Below are positions 1,548-59,998 of a stretch of 61,292 nucleotides of DNA, piece after piece. Within the stretch, counting starts at the first letter, position 1. Every line of letters begins with the position of its first letter. Location of the stretch: assembly GCA_024226555.1 (NCBI GenBank), contig JAAELO010000362.1, positions 1 to 61,292 of the forward strand, in the 5' to 3' direction. The notes beneath the pieces were generated by a model. It worked only from the letters and a program-made list of their open reading frames with translations. It was not told where the DNA came from and did no database searches. This stretch comes from Desulfobacterales bacterium (GTDB taxonomy: Bacteria; Desulfobacterota; Desulfobacteria; Desulfobacterales; JAAELO01). A program made the translations under genes and the position numbers.

Positions 1548-1678
1548 GGGAACCTCTAATAACTGACTTTTGGCCGAAATACTGTGTTACAAGAAAAAAA
1601 GAACTGCAGTAAAATCAGCTCGTTATTTTTTTCTCAAGCCTTGTATTTCAATCAAAATTCTAATTATTATAGGTTCTC
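1548..1678 (-). repeat. MITE-like element between glpS and glpT
   Basis: A 131-bp copy of the basic size. It begins GGGAACCTCTAATAACTG, has the core cagtaaaatcagctcgttat, and ends in ATTATAGGTTCTC. It is flanked by TAAA on both sides (1544-1547 and 1679-1682), an exact 4-bp direct repeat. It lies inside the transcribed glp operon, so it must be carried in the mRNA as a long hairpin. Confidence 0.9.
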
Positions 1679-7206: not shown

Positions 7207-7393
7207 GAGAATCTCTAATAACCTCTCTTTTGGCGAAATACATTGTTATTTCCAAAAAAAACTGTAAAATTTATAAAATTAAACCTTTTATAAACGAATC
7301 GGCTCGTTACTTTTTGAAATGCAGAGATTTTATAAAACTAAAGCTTTTATAAACGCTATATTTCATCCATAATTTTAATTATTAGAGGTTCCC
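7207..7393 (-). repeat. MITE-like element, enlarged copy (187 bp)
   Basis: It starts GAGAATCTCTAATAACC and ends ATTATTAGAGGTTCCC. The core reads actgtaa...aatcggctcgtta. Two palindromic cassettes of the 'tttataaaa..cttttataaa' type interrupt it, one in the centre (about 7268-7295) and one in the right arm (about 7325-7360). The flanks differ (TAAA left, TTTC right), so no target duplication remains. Confidence 0.88.
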
Positions 7394-9307: not shown

Positions 9308-9467
9308 GGGAACCTCTAATAATTAGAATTTTTGATGAAAAAGAACGTTTATAAAAGCTTTTAGTTTTATAAAATCTCTGTATATCAAAAAACAACGGGT
9401 TGATTTTACTACAGTTTTTTTTTGATATATCTGTGTTTCGCAAAAAGATCAGTTATTAGAGATTCCC
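9308..9467 (+). repeat. MITE-like element, 160-bp form
   Basis: It begins GGGAACCTCTAATAATTAG and ends CAGTTATTAGAGATTCCC. It contains one palindromic cassette (gtttataaaagcttttag / ttttataaaatc) in the left arm and the core 'aacaacgggttgattttact' followed by acag and a T-run. Exact TTGA direct repeats flank it (9304-9307 and 9468-9471). Confidence 0.92.
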
Positions 9468-14193: not shown

Positions 14194-14260
14194 GGGAACC
14201 TCTAATAATTAGATTTTGGATGAAATATAAGGCATGACAAAAAATAACGAGCCGATTCCC
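14194..14260 (+). repeat. Internally deleted MITE-like element (67 bp)
   Basis: GGGAACCTCTAATAATTAG, the left arm and 'aaaataacgagccgat' are present, then it jumps straight to ATTCCC. Exact TTAA flanks both ends (14190-14193 and 14261-14264). The deletion junction lies at a GAT shared by the core (gagccgat) and the right end (gattccc). Confidence 0.88.
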
Positions 14261-16172: not shown

Positions 16173-16209
16173 GGGAACCTCTAATAAATTCTAATTATTA
16201 GAGGTTCCC
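16173..16209. repeat. Minimal MITE-like element (37 bp, both ends joined)
   Basis: GGGAACCTCTAATAA is joined through a few bases to TAATTATTAGAGGTTCCC with nothing between, making a nearly perfect 37-bp palindrome. The flanks (TACT, AATA) do not match. It lies in the leader of the hybrid kinase gene. Confidence 0.9.
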
Positions 16210-24007: not shown

Positions 24008-24901
24008 ATGATTTTTAATAGAAAAACAACTGAAAAGACTGTACACTCGATGTTTTTTCTTATTACTACTGTTTCTTTAACTGTATTATCTCTCATAATG
24101 TTGTTTCTATTTACAGAAAGTATTCCATTATTTGAAACAGTATCTATAAAAGATTTCCTGTTTGGTGAATTTTGGTATCCAACTGATGAGCCTGCTGAGT
24201 TTGGAATACTCTCTTTAATAATTGGTTCTCTCTATGTGACTATAATCTCATCTGTGATTGCAATTCCTTTAGGTTTAATGACAGCTATTTATTTAGCTGA
24301 AATAGCTTCCGAAAGAATGGCGGAGATTGTAAAACCAATTGTAGAGATGCTCGCATCTCTACCATCCATTGTTATTGGTTTTTTTGGAATGGTAGTTATT
24401 TCTCCACTTCTTCAGGAGACTTTTGATGTCCCAATTGGTCTTAATCTTTTTAATGCATCTCTAATGCTTGCTTTTATGATAATTCCAACTATTTGCAGTC
24501 TTTCTGAAGATGCAATACACAGCGTACCGGTTGCTTTGAAAGAAGCGTCGCTGGCACTAGGAGCAACCCATCTTGAAACAATTATTAAAGTTGTGATTCC
24601 TGCATCAATTTCCGGAATCTGCACAGCAGTCATTCTTGGAATGTCTAGAGCAATTGGAGAAACGATGGTCGTTTTAATGATAGCTGGAGGTGCAGCAATG
24701 ATTCCAACATCAATTTTTGATCCAGTAAGGCCAATGCCTGCAAGTATAGCAGCTGAGATGGCGGAAACCCCATTCGGAGGCGAACACTACCACGCTCTTT
24801 TTGCGACAGGCCTTGTTCTGTTCATATTTACTTTAATGTTTAATATGGTTGCAGCGTATATATCAAATAAATACAGACAGGTTGGAGAAGCCAGTCTATA
24901 G
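24008..24901 (+). CDS. pstC: Phosphate ABC transporter permease PstC
   Basis: A 297-residue inner-membrane permease with about six helices. The ATPase-coupling loop reads KEASLALGATHLETIIKVVI, followed by the conserved GMSRAIGETMVVLMIAGG. It forms the transmembrane channel with PstA. Its stop codon TAG (24899-24901) shares its G with the first base of a repeat-family terminal sequence (GGGAACCTCTAAAAAC), so a repeat remnant occupies the 26-bp gap to pstA. Confidence 0.92.
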   Translation: MIFNRKTTEKTVHSMFFLITTVSLTVLSLIMLFLFTESIPLFETVSIKDFLFGEFWYPTDEPAEFGILSLIIGSLYVTIISSVIAIPLGLMTAIYLAEIASERMAEIVKPIVEMLASLPSIVIGFFGMVVISPLLQETFDVPIGLNLFNASLMLAFMIIPTICSLSEDAIHSVPVALKEASLALGATHLETIIKVVIPASISGICTAVILGMSRAIGETMVVLMIAGGAAMIPTSIFDPVRPMPASIAAEMAETPFGGEHYHALFATGLVLFIFTLMFNMVAAYISNKYRQVGEASL

Positions 24902-24914
24902 GGAACCTCTAAAA
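24901..24914 (+). repeat. Remnant of a MITE-like terminal repeat between pstC and pstA
   Basis: GGGAACCTCTAAAA matches the element end for its first 12 bases; nothing else of the element remains. It begins on the last base of the pstC stop codon. Confidence 0.6.
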
Positions 24915-24927
24915 ACAGGACAAAATT

Positions 24928-25860
24928 ATGAATGAGGCTATTATAGATACACTTAAATTGGAATATACAAATATTAAATCAGTTAATGAAAAAGTTCTTC
25001 TTTTTAAAGATTCGGGTAAAAGGCGAAGAACAATTGAACAATTGTTTTTTATGATGTTTAAGGTTGCTGCAATGATTAATGGATTAGCCCTTATTGTTAT
25101 CGTTTCCTATCTTGTAATAAACGGTTATCAAAGTATAAGCTTTGAATTTTTGATCGAAGCTCCTAAAGAATCGATGACTAAAGGTGGAATTTTTCCATGT
25201 ATACTCGGAACCCTTTATCTTTCCTGCGGAGCAATTATTTTTGCACTTCCAATAGGGATTGCTTCCGCAATATATATAAATGAATATGCAGTGCAGAGCA
25301 GGTTTCTCAATTTTATAAGGTTAGGTATAAATACCCTTGCCGGAGTCCCGTCAATTGTTTTTGGCCTGTTTGGTCTTGCTTTCTTCTGTATAGTCCTGAA
25401 GATGGGTGTAAGCATAATTGCCGGATCCCTAACATTAGGGATTATGAGTCTACCTGTTATTATTTCAGCAACAGAAGAAGCATTAAAATCAGTACCGGAT
25501 ACATACAGAGAAGCATCATTGGGACTTGGGGCAACCAAATGGCAAACTATATATAAAGTAGTATTACCAACAGCACTACCTGGTATTTTAACCGGAACTA
25601 TTCTGGCCCTAAGTAGGGCAGCTGGTGAAACAGCACCAATAATGTTCACTGGTGCTGTTTTTTTTACACAAACACTGCCAACTTCAATTTTTGATGAAGT
25701 TATGGCACTTCCCTATCATATTTATGTACTTGCAACAGCCGGGATAAACATCGAATTGACAAGACCTCTTCAATATGGAAGTGCGCTGGTTCTCTTGATA
25801 ATGGTTCTTGGAATGAATTTAGTTGCTATAATATACAGGTCTAAGTTGAGGAGAAAGTAA
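24928..25860 (+). CDS. pstA: Phosphate ABC transporter permease PstA
   Basis: A 310-residue permease partner of PstC, with a longer cytoplasmic N-terminus (about 45 residues) before the first helix. The coupling loop [20 protein letters not shown] and the following [20 protein letters not shown] are typical. Its stop overlaps the pstB start by 1 bp (TAATG), indicating translational coupling. Confidence 0.92.
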
Positions 25861-26624: not shown

Positions 26625-27305
26625 ATGAAATATCACCTTCAAAAAGAGCTGGATAAAATAAAGGAAAAACTCCTGACGCTTGGAGCTTTGGTAGAGGATA
26701 GGGTCTATAAAGCTGTAAGGTCAATAGAGTCGAAAGATGAAGTCGTTGCAAAAAAAATTATTGAAGCTGATAATGAGATTGATGAAATGGAGATTGAACT
26801 TGAGGAGGATTGCCTGAAAGTTCTTGCTCTGCATCAGCCTGTAGCTGTTGATTTAAGGTTTATAATTGCTGTTATTAAAATTAATAATGACCTTGAGAGA
26901 GTGGCAGATCAGGCTGTTAATATTGCCAGTCGTGTTGCAAATATTTCAAAAAGAGAGAAATCCGAAGAGTTTTTCCATGATTACTCGTTAATGGAAGAGA
27001 AAGTGGAATACATGTTTGTAAAAAGTCTTGATGCATTTGTTAATATGGATGTATCACTGGCTGAAAAGATTATTAAAATGGATGATGAGGTTGACAAGCT
27101 CAAGGGTGAAGCATACGATATTATCAAAGATGCGATGATTAAAAGGTCTGACCAGATAGGTTATTTGATAAATTTTTTTCTGATTTCAAGACACCTGGAA
27201 AGAATAGCTGACTATGCAACGAATATTGCAGAAGAGGTTATATACCTTGTTGAAGGAAAAATAGTCAGACATAGAGATGAGTATTTATATAAAGGGAAAC
27301 TCTAA
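26625..27305 (+). CDS. phoU: Phosphate signalling protein PhoU
   Basis: A 226-residue all-helical protein made of two three-helix repeats, each with the metal-binding type motif (ERVADQAVNIA and ERIADYATNIAEE). It links the Pst transporter to PhoR and represses the regulon when phosphate is plentiful. The last residues, YKGKL, and the TAA stop are encoded by the first bases of a repeat element that begins at 27294 (GGGAAACTCTAATAA), so insertion of the element reset the end of the protein. Confidence 0.92.
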   Translation: MKYHLQKELDKIKEKLLTLGALVEDRVYKAVRSIESKDEVVAKKIIEADNEIDEMEIELEEDCLKVLALHQPVAVDLRFIIAVIKINNDLERVADQAVNIASRVANISKREKSEEFFHDYSLMEEKVEYMFVKSLDAFVNMDVSLAEKIIKMDDEVDKLKGEAYDIIKDAMIKRSDQIGYLINFFLISRHLERIADYATNIAEEVIYLVEGKIVRHRDEYLYKGKL

Positions 27306-27455
27306 TAATTAGAATTTTGATTGAAATATAGCGTTTATAAAAGCTTTCAGTTTTATAAAATCTCGGCATAAGGAAAAATAACGAGCTGATTTTACAACAG
27401 TTTTTTTTCGAAATTACGCTGTAGTTCGATTAAAAGGCGGCTACTAGAGGTTCCA
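27294..27455 (+). repeat. MITE-like element overlapping the phoU 3' end
   Basis: A 162-bp copy: GGGAAACTCTAATAATTAG, a palindromic cassette (gcgtttataaaagctttc / gttttataaaatctc) in the left arm, the core aaataacgagctgatttta, an acag T-run, and the end GGCTACTAGAGGTTCC. It separates phoU from phoB. Left flank TAAA; the right flank is altered. Confidence 0.9.
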
Positions 27456-34986: not shown

Positions 34987-35115
34987 GGGAACCTCTAATA
35001 ATTAGAATTTTGGATAAAATACAAGGCATTTCAAAAAATAACGAGCCGACTTTATTACAGTTTTTTTTGGAAATAACAAAGTATTTTGCCAAAAGAACAG
35101 TTATTAGAGGTTCCC
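34987..35115 (+). repeat. MITE-like element, basic 129-bp form (reference copy)
   Basis: A-type end GGGAACCTCTAATAATTAG, then gaattttggataaaatac, the core aaaaataacgagccgacttt followed by attacag and eight T, then ggaaataac and the B-type end CAGTTATTAGAGGTTCCC. Exact TATA flanks both ends (34983-34986 and 35116-35119). I use this copy to define the plus orientation. Confidence 0.95.
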
Positions 35116-43772: not shown

Positions 43773-43901
43773 GGGAATCTCTAATAACTGATCTTTTGGC
43801 AAAATACTTTGTTATTTCCAAAAAAAACTGTAATAAAATCGGCTCGTTATTTTTTAAAATGCCTTGTATTTTAACCAAAATTCTAATTATTAGAGGTTCC
43901 C
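43773..43901 (-). repeat. MITE-like element, basic form, at a gene break
   Basis: A 129-bp copy in reverse orientation: GGGAATCTCTAATAACTG, core ctgtaataaaatcggctcgt, end AATTATTAGAGGTTCCC. The flanks differ (TTAA left, TATA right), unlike most full copies. The truncated dehydrogenase gene begins only 4 bp after it. Confidence 0.93.
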
Positions 43902-48611: not shown

Positions 48612-48799
48612 GAGAACCTATAATTAGAATTTTGATTGAAATACAAGGTATTAGAAAAAATAACAAACCGGTTCGTTTATAAAAAAGGTTATATTCTATA
48701 AAGTTTACAGTTTTTTTTCTTAATATACCCCCATTGTTTTGTTTTTATTCATTTTAAAACAACTTAAGTAGTTCGGTTAAAAGGCAGTTATTGATTCCC
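48612..48799 (+). repeat. MITE-like element, 188-bp form with centre and right-arm cassettes
   Basis: GAGAACCTATAATTAG at the left and GCAGTTATTGATTCCC at the right. A cassette sits in the centre (between aataacaaaccgg and cagttttttt). A different one is in the right arm (accccc, attgttttgttttt, attttaaaacaacttaag). The flanks (TTAT, TTAA) nearly match. Confidence 0.88.
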
Positions 48800-50390: not shown

Positions 50391-50584
50391 GGGAACTATA
50401 ATAACCGCTTTTTAACTGAACTACTTAAGTTGTTTTAAAAAGAATAAAAACAAAACAACGGGGTATATTATGAAAAAAAAATGTTGTAAAATAAGCTCAT
50501 TATTTTTTCTAATGCAGAGATTTTATAAAACAAAAGTTTTATAATCTGTATTTCAATAAAAAATTATAGTTATTAGAGGTTCCC
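50391..50584 (-). repeat. MITE-like element, 194-bp form, between paaK and the ACT gene
   Basis: GGGAACTATAATAACCGC at the left and AGTTATTAGAGGTTCCC at the right. It carries the tgttttaaaaag...aaaacaac cassette in the left arm and the 'attttataaaac..gttttataat' cassette in the right arm. Exact TAAA flanks both ends (50387-50390 and 50585-50588). Confidence 0.92.
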
Positions 50585-51096: not shown

Positions 51097-51285
51097 TGGA
51101 ATCTCTAATAACTGATCTTTTAGCGAAATACTTAAGTTGTTCAAAAAACGGAACAACAGAATTATTTCCAAAAAAAAACTGTAATAAAATCGGCTCGTTA
51201 TTTTTGGAAATGCAGAGATTTTATAAAACTAAAAGCTTTTATAATCTGAATTTCATCCAAAATTCTAATTATTAGAGAGGTCACC
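51097..51285 (-). repeat. MITE-like element, 189-bp form
   Basis: TGGAATCTCTAATAACTG at the left and AATTATTAGAGAGGTCACC at the right. It has the acttaagttgttc..gaacaac cassette in the left arm and the 'attttataaaac..gcttttataa' cassette in the right arm. Exact TTAA flanks both ends (51093-51096 and 51286-51289). The right TTAA adjoins GG and forms part of the ribosome site of the next gene. Confidence 0.9.
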
Positions 51286-59868: not shown

Positions 59869-59998
59869 GGGAACCTCTAATAATTAGAATTTTGATTGAA
59901 ATGCAAGGCGAGAGAAAAAATAACGAGCTGATTTTACTACAGTTATATTTTTTGAAAAACGCTGTAGTTCGATTAAAAGGTGGTTATTAGAGATTCCC
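59869..59998 (+). repeat. MITE-like element, basic 130-bp form
   Basis: GGGAACCTCTAATAATTAG, then 'tttgattgaaatgcaaggc', the core aaaaataacgagctgatttt followed by actacag, and the end GTGGTTATTAGAGATTCCC. Exact TAAA flanks both ends (59865-59868 and 59999-60002). The element ends 29 bp before the flavodiiron start codon, so it lies in that gene's leader or promoter region. Confidence 0.94.

Follow-up and report, generated by a model that had tools for sequence, protein, structure and literature searches.

The short repeats dispersed through the genome of a Desulfobacterales bacterium (hereafter the host) are very probably MITEs: judging from their sequences, they are non-coding elements of ~130 bp that would fold as hairpins over their full length and would be moved by an IS5-family transposase at TWWA sites. 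The ~16-bp ends of the elements would be recognised in trans by a transposase of the NF033581 type (DUF772 plus DDE_Tnp_1), which would insert them at TWWA and duplicate 4 bp of the target. The body between these ends appears to go back to an old lineage of hairpins in the phylum, and the ends of that lineage may have been swapped or have evolved anew at least twice, suiting different transposases. Beyond the host, and beyond what the sequence-only reading had noticed, one lineage of hairpin bodies is coupled to at least three transposition signatures: TWWA with a 4-bp duplication, a 5-bp duplication, and ANNT with a 4-bp duplication.

Copies in the window and in the host genome

Within the window (the whole stretch of DNA that was analysed, 61,292 nt) the 15-bp end motif GGGAACCTCTAATAA is found 34 times at ≤3 mismatches, against 2.3 on average and at most 7 in 100 shuffles, and the copies range in size from 37 to 194 bp (Table 1). 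Seven of them had been described in the sequence-only reading as having identical 4-bp flanks, and all seven are present, including the copy with a deletion at 14194. The same reading counted about ten copies as near-complete, which holds in part: those at 7207, 27294 and 43773 are two-ended and lack an exact 4-bp match, the right end at 51097 is damaged, and the ends at 48612 are degenerate.

Table 1. Repeat copies in the 61,292-nt window and their target duplications
Feature	Position	Strand	Target duplication and remarks
Reference MITE copy, 129 bp	34987..35115	+	TATA; folds as single hairpin, z -8.4
MITE copy, 131 bp	1548..1678	-	TAAA
MITE copy, 187 bp	7207..7393	-	two-ended; no exact duplication
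MITE copy, 160 bp	9308..9467	+	TTGA
MITE copy with deletion, 67 bp	14194..14260	+	TTAA retained
Minimal copy, 37 bp	16173..16209	.	hardly more than both ends; no duplication
MITE copy, 162 bp	27294..27455	+	two-ended; flanks TAAA / TTAA, inexact
MITE copy, 129 bp	43773..43901	-	two-ended; no exact duplication
MITE copy, degenerate ends	48612..48799	+	flanks TTAT / TTAA, inexact
MITE copy, 194 bp	50391..50584	-	TAAA
MITE copy, 189 bp, right end damaged	51097..51285	-	TTAA
MITE copy, 130 bp	59869..59998	+	TAAA

The longer copies at 7207-7393, 9308-9467 and 50391-50584 (~160 or ~190 bp) carry extra AT-rich hairpin units, e.g., TTTATAAAAGCTTTTAGTTTTATAAA, in steps of ~30 bp. Isolated 15-bp ends (0-1 mismatch), with nothing else of an element around them, were also seen directly before ATG triplets, at 24901-24915 in the window and at L055:8260-8274 and L061:12415-12429. 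The solo end at 24901, the one site compared with the ORF list, lies in the gap between a pstC-like ORF and its neighbour at 24928.

The host assembly comprises 7.69 Mb in 904 contigs and is 98% complete. It belongs to the order Desulfobacterales, as do all 39 other genomes listed as relatives. A 26-mer of the left end (≤2 mismatches) occurs 741 times in these 7.69 Mb and its reversed control pattern not once, a count that shows how far the amplification of one class can reach. With the reference copy (34987-35115) as query at least 40 further places are found in the genome (40 of 1361 candidates were scored), and identity over the aligned part is 97-100% at 39 of these and 91% at one. A sample of the family, made up of the window and 80 stretches from contigs already known to match (1,637,239 bases), yielded 793 ends, against 67 with a reversed control motif, and 257 inverted pairs. 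Two-ended copies in the sample measure 35-284 bp, with the main length peak at 128-131 bp and smaller peaks at ~160 and ~190 bp. Scaled from the sample by the 26-mer, the genome holds about 930 two-ended copies; the initial estimate of well over a thousand is reached if partial copies are included, and not by two-ended copies alone. Among copies of the 100-200 bp size class, 75 of 217 match at least one other copy in the sample at ≥97% identity, so the spread has been recent. The family also seems to fragment the host assembly, several contigs terminating at copies; contigs C735, C441, C279, C283, C248 and C247 start or stop within ~20 bases of one.

Insertion signature and a probable IS5-family partner

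Flanks were compared for 253 inverted pairs with sufficient flanking sequence (4 of the 257 were left out). Exact identity over 4 bp is found in 119 of them, whereas 500 shuffles of the partners averaged 16.4 and never exceeded 27, and there is no comparable excess at 3 bp (12 against 19.6 expected) or at 5 bp (6 against 2.7). The excess of matching 4-mers read from a handful of copies in the window is thus seen again with many more copies. Counts for some of the duplications are 30 for TAAA/TTTA, 29 for TTAA, 15 for ATAA/TTAT and 14 for TATA; from the tetranucleotide background 1.3 TTAA duplications would be expected. The preferred target of the host family is TWWA, which bears out the preference for TTAA-like targets proposed from the window. 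There is no exact 4-bp match in 134 pairs, and the share of matches falls as the ends get poorer, from 9 of 15 pairs whose ends are perfect and 77 of 126 at 1-2 mismatches to 33 of 112 at 3-6, the pattern that decay would give.

REPIN/RAYT systems are dispersed short palindromic repeats, thought to be mobilised in trans by an HUH transposase, and the host elements are likewise small, palindromic and very numerous. That they belong with REP/REPIN elements and owe their spread to a Y1 (HUH) transposase that leaves no target duplication is nonetheless very improbable, given the exact 4-bp duplications, the two long inverted ends and the matching ends of an IS in relatives (see below) that encodes a DDE and not an HUH transposase. 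The rejection of a simple REP-like repeat in the sequence-only reading is upheld by the same duplications.

Empty sites offer a second view of insertion. The flanks of each element were joined minus one duplication and searched against the sampled genome, giving 169 alignments that span the junction, many of which are self-matches or matches to other copies. Four alignments were inspected. A paralogous empty site for the element at L188:3579-3708 lies in L224, with TTAT present once and a junction free of indels, and the nested insertions at L212:9710-9865 and L060:5475-5600 have uninterrupted counterparts with a single target copy; the fourth alignment (L185) is less clean.

The elements have terminal inverted repeats and a fixed 4-bp target duplication, as MITEs do, and are too short for a transposase gene. 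A further feature of MITEs, ends in common with an autonomous transposon, is seen through an IS present in five related genomes. PF05598 (DUF772) was searched in 17 relatives, with matches in 11, and 30 loci were retained. Both ends are found at IS distance in two of these (L123 and L124), six have single or unsuitable end matches and 22 have none. The IS of genome G001 (L124) is 1289 bp long, terminates in GGGCACCTCTAAAAATC and GGGTTTCTCTAATAATT, is flanked by a TTAA duplication and encodes an intact transposase of 337 aa. Against NF033581 (IS5 family; cut-off 140) this transposase scores 280.9 bits and a second scanned transposase 271.3 bits, and both have PF05598 and PF01609 (DDE_Tnp_1) domains. 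Close relatives of the G001 transposase (E ≤1e-40) occur at 10 loci in 6 of 389 genomes of the order. At seven of these loci, spread over five genomes, both ends are present (GGGNNYCTCTAAWAAT, ≤2 mismatches) at a distance of 1281-1290 bp, and the remaining three, all in G009, have one end each. Five of the seven two-ended loci are flanked by exact 4-bp duplications (TTAA, TTTA, TTAT, TGAA, ATAA), three of the five being copies of one IS in G069, and the other two have none. In its duplications, and with a DUF772 plus DDE_Tnp_1 transposase above the family cut-off, the partner IS has the features of the IS5 family (IS5_4 group).

The MITE left end is found in 4 of the 6 genomes with this transposase and in 12 of the 383 others (Fisher p 2.8e-5, the genomes being not independent); by the 26-mer pattern, two of the six lack it. 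The sequence that MITE and IS have in common is confined to the terminal ~12-20 bp, so a simple internal deletion of these IS does not account for the MITE. A complete IS that combines these ends with a transposase gene, which the sequence-only reading had suggested looking for, thus exists in five relatives; it was not found in the host's own assembly, where no PF05598 protein is present, the best match to the G001 transposase has an E-value of 0.2, and the six PF01609 loci show no pair of MITE-type ends, apart from two single matches at 4 mismatches. Since the smallest contigs seen are 3.2 kb, a collapsed IS may be missing from the host assembly; alternatively, the IS may have been lost. The host copies would then have been moved by an IS5_4-type transposase, or by a close relative of it that is unassembled or since lost. 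Insertion by a transposase acting in trans, as first proposed, is supported by the excess of matching 4-mers, by the paralogous and nested empty sites and by the IS with the same ends in relatives.

A 383-aa frame runs antisense across the entire transposase gene of the partner IS (L124:769-1920), and similarly long antisense frames are present in L123 and L125. Other multicopy DUF772 transposases were seen in G368 (L147, L149 and L151) and G302 (L142, L145, L148 and L150), the frames measuring 515 or 330 aa in the former and 534 aa in the latter; these loci lack class A ends (defined below).

One hairpin body, at least three transposition signatures

Counting the host, 16 of the 389 genomes of the order contain the MITE left end. 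A cultured bacterium, Desulfospira joergensenii, is also a carrier, with one copy seen. Among the two-ended copies listed from relatives (n = 17), 16 are 141-142 bp long and one is 153 bp, and exact 4-bp flanks are found in 11. These elements share their first ~50 bp with the host family (82% over 50 bp, E 2.6e-7), as well as the right arm and the hairpin layout; the host copies, too, fold into a single hairpin with a like arrangement (z -8.4). Their centre differs from that of the host family, and reads GGAGGAATA...TATTTCGAGGATTAAA. An RNAalifold structure of 18 elements from relatives has 48 pairs, 24 of them with two-sided changes that keep the pair; shuffling gives a mean of 10.8 such pairs (0 of 500 reach 24), and 4-9 remain when the partners are slid by 1-3 columns, the structure having been derived from the same alignment on which it was scored and the elements being related. 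As judged from this alignment, the covariation shows a conserved hairpin and says nothing on its use. Arm pairing could also be kept by the correction of imperfect palindromes during replication.

A conserved hairpin is also what would be expected of host regulatory elements under selection (terminators, mRNA-stability hairpins or protein sites), the mobility of which would be incidental or past. This explanation draws on the full-length fold, on the covarying pairs in relatives and on placement: 209 of 213 copies of 100-200 bp lie outside mechanically called ORFs (a copy that overlaps only an ORF edge being scored as outside), whereas random placement puts 66% inside one, although the intergenic share is an upper bound because any insertion into a gene breaks the ORF. 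Non-genic placement is also explained by purifying selection together with an AT-rich target, and the near-identical copies are recent. Orientation between tandem genes (59 same, 46 opposite) shows no clear bias, and the gaps that hold copies (109 tandem, 41 divergent and 33 convergent) resemble all gaps (463, 146 and 118) with no clear preference for a type. Regulatory elements are accordingly an improbable account of the family. A terminator or promoter role was also sought from orientation and gene context, and the sampled copies gave no clear signal of either.

With the repeats regarded as MITEs, the distribution of their body can be followed with a covariance model (R1) of the ~97-bp body, built from 21 elements, none of them from the host genome. 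At E ≤1e-4 the model finds the body in at least 79 of 395 genomes of the phylum (≤10 candidates scored per genome), and in the host genome it has at least 9 matches, the best with an E-value of 7.2e-18. An older host copy at L043:10914-11020 has a centre of the phylum type and scores 53.5 bits to R1 in a local search; it stands beside the amplified, derived family. Typical window copies match R1 weakly (20.9 bits at 59891, E 0.06, within the copy at 59869..59998), which shows drift of the amplified family away from the common body.

Rfam has no match to the window at the gathering score, and two miRNA models in six loci of relatives lie far under their cut-offs and were taken as chance. The left end has no exact match in viral contigs, and one 141-bp element used as query has no match in phages. 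The hairpin core is present in plasmids of 'Deltaproteobacteria bacterium Smac51', and a single 25-base match in a Rickettsiales plasmid was taken as chance. In Smac51, a cockroach-gut deltaproteobacterium (L105:1449-1595 and plasmid CP026659), a plasmid carries several instances of the body, on which the end is a different one, AGAAGTCATTTCATAAATAAG, perhaps accompanied by duplication of TA; this end set, with four well-paired elements, was left out of the class count.

The ends found on the common body fall into several classes. Altogether 130 loci were examined, 30 from the R1 search and 100 more of its best places, with the end motifs defined on the first 30 and used to class the whole set; 115 were classed and 15 were dropped for poor or cut ends. 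Class A (GGGTATCTCTAAAAATT / GGGTGTCTTGAAAAATT; 46 elements) has the 4-bp target signature TWWA, with exact 4-bp duplications in 24 against 2.9 expected and 5-bp duplications in none. Class B (GAGACCTTTGAAAAATG, end motif GAGACCTTTG) has 37 elements, 36 with distinct flanks, and in these 36 duplications are of 5 bp in 15 (0.5 expected) and of 4 bp in three. In class C (AGTGTCTGAACGAAAACT, end motif AGTGTCTGAACG; 21 elements) 4-bp duplications of the ANNT type are found in 14 against 1.9 expected, and 5-bp duplications in none. Class D (AGTGTCCATCCAGAAATG) has 11 elements, among which no duplication length stands out. Two end classes are found together in 6 of 29 genomes. The PF05598 loci of six genomes, checked for class A and B motifs, include no clean class B IS, and of the 30 PF01609 loci kept from 17 genomes and checked for all classes, none is a clean IS bounded by ends of class B, C or D. 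In G397, class-B-like ends stand 1425 bp apart on a decayed element that lacks a duplication and whose broken transposase scores 56.8 bits against IS5_4 (cut-off 140); as the class B partner this element is suggestive only.

In a tree of the bodies the classes cluster, and the best tree has 11 class changes where the minimum is 3. A single lineage of bodies must then have changed its signature at least twice, or three times if class D is separate. We infer that the ends were exchanged, and not slowly remodelled. Repeated swapping of ends on the body lineage is likely but not proven, and as the well-supported branches force only one origin per class, repeated exchange is not claimed. Slow divergence of one ancestral element, in step with diverging IS5-type transposases, could also have placed different ends on a common body, and we regard this as a real possibility, if somewhat short of an even chance. 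By eye the ends are alike in pattern, with a G-rich tip followed by an A/T run, and differ most at their tips; the single forced origin per class also speaks for divergence, and the decayed class-B-like IS is weakly IS5_4-like, albeit under the cut-off. Divergence fits less well with the shift in duplication length from 4 to 5 bp and in target from TWWA to ANNT, with the coexistence of two classes in the same genomes, and with the number of changes in the best tree.

MITEs are usually seen as remnants of one IS, in which the ends matter and the interior drifts freely. Here the interior persists across the phylum while the ends, the target and the duplication length change. One tentative and more speculative proposal is that the body is a selected functional module, a parasite of transposases that repeatedly gains new ends, such that at least three specificities would drive the same ~97-bp body. 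Its conserved structure, perhaps through arm pairing as a cruciform or as RNA, would then aid spread or host tolerance, and the usual MITE pattern of conserved ends and a free interior would be inverted. Two questions become testable: how a non-autonomous element changes from one transposase to another, and whether the interior of a MITE has a function of its own.

Comparison with described elements

Tn3-derived TIMEs are reportedly non-autonomous inverted-repeat elements which, to go by a title, generate mosaic elements; the host family is similarly non-autonomous with inverted repeats, and differs in transposase family. The host repeats are MITEs, a known kind of element, and in the accessible part of the open-access literature no description of these ends or of this hairpin body was found, by topic or by sequence string. 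As far as the accessible sections describe them, MITEs of the IS5 family are also short and non-coding, with IS5-type ends and a 4-bp duplication, and the NF033581 partner found in relatives adds to the likeness (PMC3852290). In the table rows seen there, archaeal IS5-associated MITEs have copy numbers of 2-34. The host family differs from the IS5-associated MITEs described in those sections in its far higher copy number, in resembling an IS at the ends only, and in a body that also occurs with other ends (PMC3852290).

ERIC (RU-1) and Correia/NEMIS elements, in the excerpted text of one review, are similar in size (~100-200 bp), AT-richness, stable long stem-loop and target duplications (PMC2229807). 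A table of that review gives ERIC ends of 7 bp and Correia ends tipped with TA (PMC2229807). The 7-bp ends with TA termini listed there as a feature of ERIC/RU-1 are not found in the host family (PMC2229807). Going by these descriptions, the host family is set apart from both ERIC and Correia by ends of ~16 bp that start with GGG, by the target TWWA and by its hosts (PMC2229807).

A further parallel is with Thiomargarita, where the available passages describe high-copy MITEs in a large sulfur bacterium, with one large hairpin and no partner IS identified (PMC4853749). The MITE in hupL has 10-bp direct repeats and the other has TATA ends, according to the same passages (PMC4853749), and by description it is these direct repeats and ends that distinguish the Thiomargarita MITEs from the host family.
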